From: Burkholderiales bacterium
GTDB lineage: Bacteria > Pseudomonadota > Gammaproteobacteria > Burkholderiales > Burkholderiaceae_C
Assembly (NCBI GenBank): GCA_018969975.1
Contig: JAGWXI010000025.1
Location: 1-32,008 of the forward strand
Reading direction: 5' to 3'
Length of the DNA: 32,008 bases
Positions 14,131 through 18,441 of this stretch are shown in pieces. The notes below the pieces were generated by a model, which worked only from the letters and a program-made list of their open reading frames with translations, did no database searches and had not been told where the DNA came from. A program made the translations under genes and the position numbers. The stretch's first letter is position 1. Each line of letters begins with the position of its first letter.

Positions 14131-15216
14131 TTAAGGTATTAATGTCAGGAATAAAAAGGACGCGAAAAGAACAAGATGAATTGCACCTTGCATGACATTG
14201 GTCTTACCAGAACCCAATGTAATTCCACCCACTAAAAATGTAAGTCCAAGTAGCACTACGTCTTTGGTATCGAGTCCCAGCATCAGTTCAAAATTAAAAA
14301 TAACTGAAAAAAGAATGACTAAGGGAATAGTTAAACCTATGCTTGCAAGAGCTGAGCCTATCGCTAAGTTCATGCTCGTTTGCAATCTGTCCGCCATGGC
14401 GGCTCTTAGAGCAGCCCATGTTTCTGGGAGCAGCACAATCAAAGCGATCAAAATTCCGACTATTGCACCTGGCGCGTTGTAAACAGTTACAAATGACTTG
14501 ATCGTAGGAGACAGTAATTTGGCAAATCCAACGACACACAAGAGTGATATGGACATAAGAAAAAAACTTATCCACGCCTGCTTGGAAGTTGGAGGAATTG
14601 CATGAACGGATTCATTTTGGACATCCGCAGTGGGTAAAAAATAATCTCTGTGTCGAATGGTTTGTATAAATACAAATACCAGCCACAAAGCCAGCGACGA
14701 AAGTGCAATAAATAAAAGTTGTGAGTTCGTATAGGTTCCCTCTGGAGAGCTAATGGTGTAGAGCGGCATAACCAATACCAAAACAGATAAAGTTGCCAAA
14801 GCTGCAAAACCAGAACCTGTTCCTTCTATTCGAAACAGCTGTTCCTTGTGATGCAACCCACCAATAAGTAAAGACAAACCTACGACGCCGTTACAAATAA
14901 TCATGACTGCCGAATAAATGGTGTCTCTGGGCAACGTTGCATTTTTACCGCCTTCCGTAAACATGATCGACAAAATCATGGCTGTTTCGATAACGGTCAC
15001 TGCTAATGCCAGAACCAGCGTTCCATAAGGTTCTCCCAGTCGATGTGCGATAACTTCCGCATGATGCACAGATGCAATAACTGCTACTAGCATGATGGCA
15101 AAAGCTATTGCAACAAGTAACCCCGTCATTGGTATTACCAGGAACACATATAGAAGTCCAGAACTTATTAAGGGTGTGAATTCAGGCCAATATTTATAGG
15201 GACTCAGGCGATTCAT
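14131..15216 (-). CDS. Cation/proton antiporter of the CaCA family (ChaA/y4hA-like)
   Basis: A 361-residue polytopic membrane protein with about ten hydrophobic segments and the internal repeat of calcium/cation antiporters. The first repeat has HHAEVIAHRLGEPYGTLVLALAVTVIETAMI with E77. The second has VLLPETWAALRAAMADRLQTSMNLAIGSALASIGLTIP with E265; these acidic residues are the likely ion-binding sites. The family exchanges Ca2+ (or Na+/K+) for H+ across the inner membrane. It is the last gene of a minus-strand set, 40 bp after the 150-residue unknown gene, and thus probably under the riboswitch at 16500-16643. Export of Mn2+ rather than, or besides, Ca2+ is therefore worth considering. No obvious ribosome-binding site is seen. 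Confidence 0.87.
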   Translation of the reverse strand: MNRLSPYKYWPEFTPLISSGLLYVFLVIPMTGLLVAIAFAIMLVAVIASVHHAEVIAHRLGEPYGTLVLALAVTVIETAMILSIMFTEGGKNATLPRDTIYSAVMIICNGVVGLSLLIGGLHHKEQLFRIEGTGSGFAALATLSVLVLVMPLYTISSPEGTYTNSQLLFIALSSLALWLVFVFIQTIRHRDYFLPTADVQNESVHAIPPTSKQAWISFFLMSISLLCVVGFAKLLSPTIKSFVTVYNAPGAIVGILIALIVLLPETWAALRAAMADRLQTSMNLAIGSALASIGLTIPLVILFSVIFNFELMLGLDTKDVVLLGLTFLVGGITLGSGKTNVMQGAIHLVLFASFLFLTLIP

Positions 15217-15256: not shown

Positions 15257-15709
15257 TTAATCAGCAACCATGGCTATGCCTGCACCCATTGCAATAACGC
15301 CCACAGGCAAAGTGAGCGTTGTAGGTGATTGGGGTTGATTCTCAGTAACTTGATCTAAATTTGCACCTAATTTTGGGCGTCGAACATCAATCACTCGGGC
15401 TGTTTTAAATTCACCGCATAATTTTTTGGTGAATTCGGTTAGTGGTCCAAAGGCTGTTTTTATAAAAACTTGGGCATGTTGCTGTTTCAGCAAAGTTTCA
15501 ATTTCACAGGTAGCCTCTTGCGTCCAATCTTGACGCCATTTTTTTTGAGCAGTTTTAGATAGCCAACGTCCCCCATGCCGAGTCAATCGAGGTGGGCAAC
15601 CTACCAAGACCCAACAAACTCTGGTCTCAGGCTCTTGCGGTGTAAGCATAGGAATTATTTGCTGTAGCGCATATTCCTTGTCATCGATGTAAACAATAAA
15701 AGTTTCCAT
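15257..15709 (-). CDS. Unknown 150-residue protein in the riboswitch-led terC operon
   Basis: I do not recognise this family. The gene is real: a strong AAAGGAG ribosome-binding site lies seven bases before the ATG, and the spacing to both neighbours (26 and 40 bp) fits one operon. The protein looks alpha/beta, with strands such as TFIVYID, VCWVLVGCPP, AQVFIKTAFGP and ARVIDVRRP alternating with a helix (QKKWRQDWTQEATCEIETLLKQQ). This resembles a small Rossmann- or universal-stress-like fold, but that is only a visual impression. Residues 132-148 (LTLPVGVIAMGAGIAMV) form a hydrophobic C-terminal tail that could anchor it in the membrane. Cys residues sit at 32, 38, 68 and 98. It probably serves the metal-handling role of its neighbours. 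Confidence 0.8.
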   Translation of the reverse strand: METFIVYIDDKEYALQQIIPMLTPQEPETRVCWVLVGCPPRLTRHGGRWLSKTAQKKWRQDWTQEATCEIETLLKQQHAQVFIKTAFGPLTEFTKKLCGEFKTARVIDVRRPKLGANLDQVTENQPQSPTTLTLPVGVIAMGAGIAMVAD

Positions 15710-15735: not shown

Positions 15736-16446
15736 TTATGCAGAGTAAGGTTCTGATTTAGTGGCTTGTTCTTGTCGTTTTTGAGTCAAACGACTCAATC
15801 CCAAGACCCCCAAAATTGCTAAAGCATAGGTAAGTACGCGAGCGATTTGGTTGAACAATGCATCTCCGTCATACCAAGCGTCTAAAAGTTGTTCGTTGAT
15901 CAACATTTGAGCTGCGGTAAATGCAAGTACTGCAGCGCCTAAGTAAATGATGATGGGCCACCTTTCGACTAAACGCAGTACCAACCTGCTTCCCATAACC
16001 ACAATCGGAATGCTGATGAGTAAGCCTATTACCACCAAATCAAATGAACCATTGGCTGCTCCAGCGACGCCCAGAACGTTATCTATGCCCATCAAAGCAT
16101 CCGCAACCACAATGGTCTTCATGGCACTCCAAAATGTGGTTGCTGAAACGCTATGGTTGGCGTCATCGGAAGAATCAGAAATGAGCTTGTAAGCAATCCA
16201 AAGGAGACCGAGTCCACCAATGAACATGAGTCCTGGGATTTGAAGTAACCAAACAACGCAAACTGTCATCGCAGAACGTACAACAATTGCTGCAATGGTT
16301 CCCCAAACAATAGCCTTGTTTTGGTGCTCTGCAGGAAGATTACGGGCTGCAAGAGCTATAACTATTGCGTTATCTCCTGCTAAAACTAAATCAATGATTA
16401 CGATAGTCAACAAAGCTGACCACCACGGGAATGTAAATAATTCCAT
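15736..16446 (-). CDS. TerC family integral membrane protein (YkoY/YjbE-like, probable Mn2+ exporter)
   Basis: A 236-residue TerC-fold protein with about seven membrane segments. Both family signatures are present: DLVLAGDNAIVIALAARNLP with D25/N26 and VADALMGIDNVLGVAGAANG with D122/N123. These Asp-Asn pairs lie in facing helices and are thought to bind the metal. TerC proteins such as Alx and YkoY/MeeF are implicated in manganese efflux and in loading exported enzymes. The gene is the first of the minus-strand operon, directly behind a leader with yybP-ykoY riboswitch motifs, the classic arrangement for this family. The ATG has a GTAGGG ribosome-binding site that may be masked (see riboswitch). 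Confidence 0.94.
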   Translation of the reverse strand: MELFTFPWWSALLTIVIIDLVLAGDNAIVIALAARNLPAEHQNKAIVWGTIAAIVVRSAMTVCVVWLLQIPGLMFIGGLGLLWIAYKLISDSSDDANHSVSATTFWSAMKTIVVADALMGIDNVLGVAGAANGSFDLVVIGLLISIPIVVMGSRLVLRLVERWPIIIYLGAAVLAFTAAQMLINEQLLDAWYDGDALFNQIARVLTYALAILGVLGLSRLTQKRQEQATKSEPYSA

Positions 16447-16474
16447 GGAAGACCCTACAACGATCCGAACACTT

Positions 16475-16491
16475 CCACAGTAAAGCTGTGG
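16475..16491 (-). repeat. Small hairpin in the terC leader
   Basis: CCACAG and CTGTGG form a six-pair stem around a five-base loop. It lies between the riboswitch-like core and the terC ribosome-binding site, so it may be part of the expression platform. There is no T run after it. Confidence 0.5.
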
Positions 16492-16499
16492 CGCGAGAG

Positions 16500-16643
16500 A
16501 TCGAAGGTCTTGCTTTGCTTGTAGTAATCCAGTTATATGCCCAATAAACCGAGAGCCCTAAGCCCCGTAATGACGATTTATTGATTTTTTTGTGCGCTTG
16601 TTAGCTGAACTGAACACAAAAAAATTAAGCTACTCCCCAACGA
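16500..16643 (-). promoter_or_regulatory. yybP-ykoY (manganese) riboswitch in the terC leader
   Basis: Read on the minus strand, the leader begins TTGGGGAGTAGC; the invariant GGGGAGTAGC is at 16630-16639. A ten-pair arm follows (16615-16624 with 16585-16594). Then come TCGTCATTACGGGGC (ending near 16562), which resembles the conserved L3 element, and GCAAGACC (complement of 16506-16513). These elements in this order, directly upstream of a terC gene, are the hallmark of the yybP-ykoY class, which senses Mn2+ and turns expression on. The AAGACC of the aptamer's 3' end is complementary to GGTCTT lying just before the terC ATG (16449-16454). Without metal that pairing could hide the ribosome-binding site. 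The class is known; the switching model here is inference. Confidence 0.85.
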
Positions 16644-16650
16644 CGGTGCA

Positions 16651-16815: not shown

Positions 16816-17685
16816 ATGAAACGCATATTCCTCTTCATACTCACCAATCTTGCAGTCATGTTGGTGTTGAGCATAGTTGCTAGCCTTCTAGGAGTTAATC
16901 GTTACTTAACCGCGAATGGTTTAAACCTTTCTGCGCTGTTGGGCTTTTCTTTAATCATGGGCTTTGGAGGCGCATTTATCTCTTTGCTCATGAGCAAGTG
17001 GATGGCCAAAATGTCGACTGGGGCAGAACTTATTACGCAACCGCGTAATGCGGATGAGGCCTGGATCGTAGATACCGTCAAACGCTTATCGCAGCGCGCG
17101 GGTATTGAAATGCCAGAGGTTGCTATTTACGACGGCGAACCCAATGCATTCGCAACTGGTGCTTTCAAAAATTCAGCTTTGGTCGCCGTCTCCACGGGCT
17201 TATTGCAAGGCATGACTCGCGATGAAGTTGAAGCCGTTTTAGGACATGAAATTGCACATATTGCTAACGGTGACATGGTTACCCTCACATTAATTCAAGG
17301 TGTACTCAATACCTTTGTCATTTTCCTAAGCCGAGTCGTGGGTTACTTTGTGGACAACCTCACCCGAAACAAAGACGATGAATCCACTGGGCCTGGCTGG
17401 GGCTATTACGTTACCAGCATCGTGCTTGATATTGTTTTAGGTTTTGTTGCAAGCATGATCGTTGCTTGGTTTAGTCGCCAGCGTGAATTCCGTGCAGATG
17501 AGGGCTCTGCTCAATTACTGGGTCAAAAACAACCGATGATTAATGCTTTGTCTCGATTAGGACAAATGCAAGCTGGGGCCTTACCCTCCAGTGTTGCCGC
17601 AATGGGTATTACTGGTGATTTAAGTAAGTTATTCGCTACCCACCCTCCACTTGAAGAACGTATAGCCGCACTACAAAACAAATAA
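16816..17685 (+). CDS. htpX: Membrane zinc metalloprotease HtpX
   Basis: A 289-residue M48B protease. Two N-terminal membrane helices (about 4-26 and 38-60) precede the catalytic domain, whose HExxH motif is [12 protein letters not shown] with H144, E145 and H148. The third zinc ligand is E224 in [12 protein letters not shown]. Two more hydrophobic segments lie near 155-180 and 196-220. The active site faces the cytoplasm, where HtpX degrades misfolded inner-membrane proteins together with FtsH. An AAAGGG ribosome-binding site lies upstream. The sigma-32-like promoter fits the known heat-shock control in E. coli. It is 27 bp upstream of a second terC-family gene, so the two are probably one transcript, joining membrane quality control to a metal-related transporter. 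Confidence 0.96.
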
Positions 17686-17712
17686 ATTCCTTATCTAGAC
17701 GCACCACACAGC

Positions 17713-18441
17713 ATGGAACTTCTCTCCTCACCAGAAGCATGGGTAGCATTTGCGACCCTTACTGCCCTGGAATTAGTACTAGGCATCGACAATATTATTT
17801 TTATATCTATTCTTGTAGACAAACTCTCGCTTGATAAGCGTGAGCTTGCAAGAAAGATAGGCCTTTTCATGGCCATGTTCATGCGCATAGGCTTGCTTTT
17901 GGTGCTCTCATGGATCGTGGGGCTGGTTGAACCTATGTTCACACTACAAGGACACGAAATTTCTGGCAGAGATGCCATCTTGCTTCTTGGAGGTCTTTTT
18001 CTTATTTGGAAGAGTACGACTGAAATTCATCAGGTGCTGGAGGGATCACATGAGCAACAAAACGCCCAATCGAGAAATACTTTTTTTTCAGTCATCTTCC
18101 AAATCATATTGATTGATTTAGTTTTTTCATTAGATTCCATCATTACGGCGGTAGGTATGGTCGATGAAATTGAAATCATGATTGCAGCCGTTGTTACGTC
18201 TGTGGGTTTAATGATGGTTTTTGCCCGTGCTATTGGCGACTTTGTATCCAACCATCCCAGCATCAAGATGCTGGCTCTTAGTTTTTTGGTCGTTGTGGGA
18301 GTCGTTCTGATCGCTGAGGGTTTTGAGCACCATATCCCAAAAGGATATATTTACTTTGCAATGGCTTTTTCAGTATGCGTCGAAATGCTCAACATACGAT
18401 TTAGAAAAAAATCTTTATCGAGCCGTTCGCCACAATCATAA
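17713..18441 (+). CDS. TerC family protein (YoaE/YgdQ-like)
   Basis: A 242-residue integral membrane protein with seven predicted segments. The signature LELVLGIDNIIFISILVDKL has D26/N27, and the second half has LIDLVFSLDSIITAVGMVDEI, in which Asp-Ser replaces the Asp-Asn of the first TerC. The C-terminus has PKGYIYFAMAFSVCVEMLNIRFRKK, typical of the YoaE/YgdQ-like branch. It therefore belongs to another branch than the riboswitch-controlled TerC and need not have the same substrate. Its stop overlaps the convergent DUF1854 gene by six bases. It lies 27 bp after htpX and has no riboswitch of its own. Confidence 0.92.
   Translation: MELLSSPEAWVAFATLTALELVLGIDNIIFISILVDKLSLDKRELARKIGLFMAMFMRIGLLLVLSWIVGLVEPMFTLQGHEISGRDAILLLGGLFLIWKSTTEIHQVLEGSHEQQNAQSRNTFFSVIFQIILIDLVFSLDSIITAVGMVDEIEIMIAAVVTSVGLMMVFARAIGDFVSNHPSIKMLALSFLVVVGVVLIAEGFEHHIPKGYIYFAMAFSVCVEMLNIRFRKKSLSSRSPQS

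Follow-up and report, generated by a model that had tools for sequence, protein, structure and literature searches.

The question raised by this locus is whether the leader of a terC gene in a Burkholderiales bacterium, a relative of freshwater Limnohabitans, is a manganese-sensing RNA and in which way it would control the gene. The window, that is the whole stretch of 32,008 nucleotides that was analysed, carries on its minus strand a leader which, judged by its sequence, belongs to the known manganese riboswitch class as an ordinary representative, with a predicted response to Mn2+. Very probably this yybP-ykoY riboswitch turns on terC translation, the ribosome-binding site (RBS) being freed at high manganese.

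The original prediction, made by eye, of a yybP-ykoY (RF00080) manganese aptamer is borne out at 16644-16500 (-); its span of 16500-16643 was correct to one base and left out the expression platform (16499-16444), which reaches the start codon, the terC ATG lying downstream of the aptamer at 16446-16444 (-). The three motifs follow in the order that had been claimed, GGGGAGTAGC at 16638-16629, TCGTCATTACGGGGC at 16576-16562 and GCAAGACC at 16513-16506, and the arm counted as ten pairs is P2 (16625-16584), which has 12 pairs in the predicted fold and an 8-base 5' bulge, UUCAGUUC, at 16614-16607. The switch helix P1.1 was assigned from the comparison and alignment of leaders and is made of the 5' strand GUCGUUGG (16644-16637) and the 3' strand CCUUCGAU (16507-16500), which from platform pairing is common to the platform helix; in it GUCG-UU-GG pairs with CC-UU-CGAU around a central tandem U.U. 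An early P1 pairing with CAAGAC, which had a bulged G, was dropped, and the leader comparison supports CGUUGG/CCUUCG. The 5' side of the L1 core, recognized from the sequence within GGGGAGUAGC (16636-16629), is near-invariant among leaders, while GCAAGACC comprises the L1 3' side and the beginning of the P1.1 3' strand. The P3 arm (16583-16542) holds the L3 core CGUCAUUAC at 16575-16567, and the P4 segment (16541-16514), defined by alignment and folding, is without a stable hairpin. The L1 and L3 cores thus stand in order between P1, P2 and P3, ahead of a gene assigned by family to TerC/YjbE and hence to manganese homeostasis. The core GGGGAGTAG is present once in the window, against 0.05 expected by chance; GGGGAGTAR has nine sites in the whole genome, eight of which were read as loci, and among these eight both other cores follow it only at the window site.

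The match to the RF00080 covariance model, by which the prediction could be checked, spans 16436-16650 (-) and is above the cut-off, barely, with 45.1 bits and an E value of 3.7e-9 in Rfam against a gathering score of 45; no other Rfam family reaches gathering anywhere in the 32,008-nt window. This margin of 0.1 bit means little, since the Escherichia coli K-12 mntP leader scores 41.6 bits, below the cut-off, and the alx leader of the same strain is unlisted by RF00080 at E 0.01. Herbaspirillum belongs to the same order as the bacterium of the window. For H. seropedicae, the yybP-ykoY copy Hsnc112 is reported with 47.7 bits, close to the score found here, and stands before mntP, not terC (PMC7011215); the E. 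coli mntP leader is treated as a Mn2+ riboswitch in the literature, as in PMC9603457, and a predicted copy in a Burkholderia genome is mentioned in a passage that does not name the gene (PMC3521395). The RF00080 cut-off is passed by three of 20 related leaders bearing the three core motifs, and 10 of those failing, rescanned at E 0.1, gave 31.6-40.6 bits in six cases and no match in four. RF00080 detects leaders of this lineage poorly and its marginal score is therefore neither strong support nor an objection; read from the sequences, it weighs less than the independent evidence of covariation, cores, gene family and promoter. As the cut-off misses most related leaders tried and E. coli mntP as well, the Mn2+ riboswitch class is probably under-counted by RF00080.

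The relatives of the leader were collected with the window TerC protein as query against species genomes, and the best 80 of 212 terC loci were kept; in this set the nearest TerC proteins belong to Comamonadaceae and Burkholderiales assemblies (84-85% identity), followed by Limnohabitans and others at up to 77%. All three cores (GGGGAGTAG, CGTCANNAC and GCAAGACC), searched in 420 bases upstream of terC with at most one mismatch per core, are present in 73 of these best 80 of 212 relatives, the seven exceptions being L033, L034, L039, L041, L045, L083 and L093; in order and spacing they define 71 distinct leaders, of which L018 and L040 are additional duplicates. In an alignment of 14 close leaders, 18 of 42 consensus pairs are changed on both sides, with 46 such cells against a shuffle mean of 12.9 (0/500 as high), and the consensus structure is paired in 95.7% of cells, a value equalled by none of 500 shuffles and falling to 38-45% when partners are slid. 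The double-sided changes concern 7/12 pairs in P2, a further 4/4 in its upper stem, and 7/15 in P3 (4/10 and 3/5), P1 being nearly invariant within this alignment. Evidence for P1.1 comes from covariation across 94 distinct leaders, a set that includes the window, Rfam-chosen leaders and three extra minus-strand copies: the helix is paired in 616 of 846 cells, a number that none of 1000 permutations attains, the highest being 600, and its column -3/+10 is paired in all 94, as G-C in 81, A-U in 12 and U-A in one. The outer columns -5, -6 and -7 are paired in only 48, 38 and 24 of the 94, and the top two G-C pairs carry no weight because they were built into the search motif, as the other columns were not. 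In the genus of the window the aptamer is patchy, being found in 16 of 84 genomes, the window's included, with model R1 and stricter filters; some TerC match is present in 58 of 61 genus genomes searched, mostly as more distant paralogues.

The perfect TTGACA noticed about 28 bases ahead of the aptamer lies at 16678-16673 (-), 28 bases from the first P1.1 base (16644), and matches the -35 consensus at 6/6 positions. With the -10 box TTTAAT (16656-16651, spacer 16), missed by a simple promoter scanner that requires A at the second -10 position, the promoter reaches 11/12 matches overall, and from its position the RNA start is predicted around 16645, near the first base, or foot, of P1.1. In 66 of the 94 leaders the best -10 box is located 17 or 18 bases before GGGGAGTAG, and the mean best score is 8.28 of 12 in comparison to 6.98 in shuffled sequence.

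Downstream of the aptamer, the strand 16510-16499 has an alternative partner, the platform helix 3' arm (16465-16450), in which GAUCG (16465-16461) and GGGUCU (16455-16450) pair with 16510-16505 and 16503-16499. The helix covers by pairing the Shine-Dalgarno-like AGGG (16456-16453), 6 bases ahead of the ATG, and excludes P1.1; in the unconstrained fold the AGGG bases have a pairing probability of 0.91-1.00. Since the P1.1 3' strand can pair with the terC RBS instead, a translational switch that is ON with manganese is the best mechanism. Mn2+ would dock L1 on L3 and so stabilise P1.1, which, once held, would keep 16507-16500 off the RBS, with the result that TerC and the product of the second gene would be made at high Mn2+; without the ion the long platform helix would close the site. 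Stabilisation of P1.1 by Mn2+ is described for other members of the class, where the control reported is transcriptional (PMC6754395; PMC11087558). As in riboswitch platforms that mask the RBS, the P1.1 3' strand and the RBS compete for the same bases, the sequence and length found in the window being clade-specific.

The aptamer alone folds at -33.3 kcal/mol with P1.1 forced and at -34.3 when free, and the whole leader at -55.6 and -67.6, respectively, so that the site would be closed without help; these values suggest that the choice is made during transcription, when Mn2+ bound early would hold P1.1 and the site would stay open. On paper the ON state is not clean, because two of the four RBS bases, 16454 and 16453, remain paired in a local hairpin of the forced fold (0.91-0.95). 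Among the 14 close leaders the platform helix is paired in 99.3% of 153 cells, the best slid control reaching 50.7%; it is without covariation and shuffles pair equally well, because the 5' strand is invariant and fixed by the aptamer.

The platform is 67 bases long in the window and 59-78 in the 14 leaders. With the RBS of related leaders picked by rule, the predicted site in platforms of 69-78 bases has a probability of 0.99-1.0 of pairing with the P1.1 3' strand in seven of nine distinct leaders and of 0.5 in two. Longer platforms of 101-187 bases occur in 58 of the 71 distinct terC leaders, and all but five of these 58, thus 53, have a direct pairing probability below 0.5; the platform mechanism is thus a feature of the clade and not general to terC leaders. 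As several of the longer platforms also have T runs, the same gene seems, from these sequences, to be served by different expression platforms across lineages. In ten leaders, some of which bear the label Alcaligenaceae, the platform measures 129-132 bases (L042, L050, L052, L054, L062, L068, L078, L079, L082 and L094); a T run of at least 5 is present in all ten, and in seven it starts 16-19 bases before terC. By their sequence, these leaders could act by termination. In the Hydrogenophaga leaders L030, L036, L076 and L086 the platform is very short, as 41-43 bases separate GCAAGACC from the start codon, and a smaller helix is able to reach GGAG.

For the window itself, a transcriptional platform behind the same aptamer, in which the hairpin would be an intrinsic terminator or expose a Rho site and Mn2+ would prevent termination, is unlikely. 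For Lactococcus lactis, control of transcription is reported as proven (PMC11087558), and some related leaders carry T runs of at least 5 between the aptamer and terC; however, the window hairpin ends GGGUCUUCC-AUG without a T run, the only terminator-like sites of the leader on the same strand are at the top of P3, and the platform helix covers the RBS. An intrinsic terminator was rejected at this locus, where terC is preceded by no G+C-rich hairpin that leads into a T run. There is still less reason to think that the switch responds chiefly to alkaline pH, as reported for alx of E. coli, and that Mn2+ only assists: both pH and Mn2+ act on the alx and mntP reporters, but their highest activation is reported to need the two together (PMC9603457), and the window sequence gives no pointer to pH alone.

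Chance resemblance, which could be argued from a score 0.1 bit over the cut-off, is so improbable as to be negligible in the face of the cores in 73 of 80 relatives, P1.1 pairing, covariation, a phased promoter and a rare motif, and is thus very unlikely on sequence evidence. A relic aptamer, or one with a changed ligand, would be marked by its weak Rfam score and by the reduced P4, whose segment between P3 and GCAAGACC folds at 0.0 kcal/mol versus -20.5 in alx and -9.1 in mntP. Such a loss is very improbable, as the L1 and L3 cores are intact, P2 and P3 are maintained by compensatory changes, the P4 segment is strongly conserved and mntP itself scores lower in Rfam.

The P4 segment is nevertheless where the window departs from other RF00080 members. 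With E. coli mntP and alx and the copies of L. lactis and Xanthomonas oryzae it shares L1 GGGGAGUAG, L3 CGUCANNAC, GCAAGACC, P1.1, P2, P3 and a TerC-family gene downstream, and it differs in the marginal score, the 8-base P2 bulge and the lack of a stable P4 hairpin. This hairpin is the fourth arm of the four-way junction. A four-way junction is described in the solved structures of the class (PMC6754395). P4 segment energies range from 0.0 to -20.1 kcal/mol over the parsed leaders (94 leaders, 15 unparsed) and from -1.2 to 0.0 in the 14 leaders of the alignment. The Polaromonas- and Hydrogenophaga-type leaders have mostly -11 to -15, with -2.1 in L049 (Polaromonas). There is no clean clade rule for a weak P4, because L105, of the same genus and with the same P1.1 5' bases as the window, has -10.1, and is without the P2 bulge. 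In the alignment of 14 leaders, L040 excepted, the segment is strongly conserved and is therefore not simply decaying; two or three pairs may still close it as a helix, or it may take part in a tertiary pairing.

A candidate partner is the P2 bulge. Within UUCAGUUC, UUCAGUU (16614-16608) is complementary to AACUGGA (16534-16528) of the P4 segment over seven pairs, one of them G.U, with a duplex energy of -5.8 kcal/mol. From the 94 leaders, 14 were filtered out (the one of the window, another seven with numbers under L010, L015-L017 and the three copies on the minus strand) and seven were unparsed, leaving 73, 28 with a bulge of at least 5 bases and 45 without. The bulged leaders have a weaker P4 (median -3.35, n=28, versus -7.0, n=45, relatedness not removed). 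Over the 28 bulged leaders (25 unique pairs) the mean longest Watson-Crick run between bulge and P4 strand is 4.08, in comparison to 3.47 in permutations (p 0.0015) and to 3.35 when the strands are shuffled (0/500), a statistic in which one clade drives the signal, relatedness is not removed and the bulge was chosen after being seen. When the whole P2 arm is searched, single leaders of the clade have runs of ordinary length (p from 0.05 to 0.97; 0.56 for the window). Within the clade no pair is changed on both sides, and 89.9% of cells are paired, no better than in shuffles, slid controls giving at most 37.2%; L040/L014 lost both the bulge and the P4-strand partners, and L106 and L215 keep only four of the pairs. 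The Alcaligenaceae-like leaders show by eye an apparent match GGUUC/GAACC, but their predicted folds lack such a bulge and they count among the 45. A compensation between P2 GGAG/GGUG and the P4-loop CUCC/CACC in weak-P4 leaders was rejected, as it fails, e.g., in L084, L101, L072 and L049. In the X. oryzae crystal construct the terminal loops of variable regions are reported as swapped for tetraloops, in a passage that leaves the arms unspecified (PMC6754395), and with such replacements a contact between peripheral arms could be missed in structures. That the P2 bulge and the P4 strand form a real tertiary helix is, on these sequences, a rather doubtful proposal; if true, the helix would clasp the RNA a second time, across the junction from the metal site of L1 and L3. 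The broader scheme, in which this contact took the place of a P4 helix lost in the clade, and the second gene, ORF150, is a new dedicated manganese-operon partner of a YjbE-type TerC, is equally speculative and would at best be a tentative reading of the sequences.

The gene controlled, terC (15736-16446 (-), 236 aa), belongs to the YjbE subfamily, with 156.9 bits for PF03741 and 219.7 bits for TIGR03717 (cut-off 134.8), a family named 'R_switched_YjbE', which itself points to riboswitch control. The gene family behind the switch is thus already named for such control, and the added interest is ORF150 together with the reduced P4 arm; yjbE of Bacillus subtilis is itself presented chiefly as a gene of sporulation (PMC10550928). 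TerC proteins of other bacteria are reported to export Mn2+ (PMC13274385) or to load secreted enzymes with metal (PMC10550928), and either role is a putative one for the TerC of the window. The claim that the leader directly precedes terC is confirmed; the operon that was also proposed is suggested by gaps of 26 bases between terC and ORF150 (15257-15709 (-), 150 aa, unannotated) and of 40 bases between ORF150 and the third gene, and by the conservation of the second gene, while the third is present in only two of 80 loci. This third gene (14131-15216 (-)) encodes a ChaA/CaxA-like cation/proton antiporter, above the cut-off of PF01699 and below those of TIGR00846 and ChaA. Within up to 3 kb of flank beyond terC in the best 80 of 212 loci, the antiporter gene occurs twice, and HtpX and a second TerC (17713-18441) are neighbours in two loci each; at this frequency all three are outside the conserved unit. 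On the plus strand (16816-18441) a divergent htpX is followed 27 bases on by the second TerC, which is below the cut-offs of the riboswitch-named YkoY and YjbE models and has no Alx model match at E 0.001; no Rfam match precedes it.

A homologue of ORF150 follows terC in 58 of the best 80 of 212 loci, and two of the 22 loci without it, L034 and L058, end about 210 bases past terC. Among 150 family genomes, ORF150 is found in 44 at E 0.001 (41 strong and three weak matches), a close TerC (E 1e-60) in 46, and the aptamer in 41 with a model built from the 14 leaders and stricter filters. Thirty-four ORF150 loci were read, seven from one search and 27 from the family search (45 matches, 15 left out); three weak ones without a tblastn match (L134-L136) and one that begins at a contig edge (L154) were set aside. 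In all 30 uncut loci, the window's included, a TerC gene and the ordered riboswitch cores lie upstream on the same strand, which makes ORF150 a good candidate manganese-handling partner. The protein of the window matches no Pfam or NCBIfam family at E 0.1, and 29 members give single weak matches, in one or two of them per family, none being a universal stress protein (USP) family. AlphaFold2 models the protein as an alpha/beta domain (mean pLDDT 83.8), in which the C-terminal tail (residues 133-150, under 50) is of low confidence and looks hydrophobic. In a Foldseek search of the PDB, six of the first eight rows are titled USP or USP-like, headed by TeaD (3hgm) of a TRAP transporter, with TM (query) values of 0.34-0.50 among the USP rows listed; there is no match at E 0.001 or better. 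The predicted fold has the size of a USP, without a Pfam match, and its weak likeness to this family is a lead only, because the top match has only E 5e-3 and TM 0.47.

The window switch alone would be one more operon in a known Mn2+ riboswitch regulon, while the reduced-P4 clade makes the need for a fourth junction arm in Mn2+ sensing testable. Some related loci carry a second set of cores that faces away from the terC leader on the other strand, at 2570 (-) in L049, 2654 (-) in L069 and 2647 (-) in L092; RF00080 finds neither copy in these three at E 0.01. Opposite-strand second sets are also present in L144, L147 and L152, and that of L049 precedes an Alx-family TerC gene (TIGR03718, 406.3 bits).
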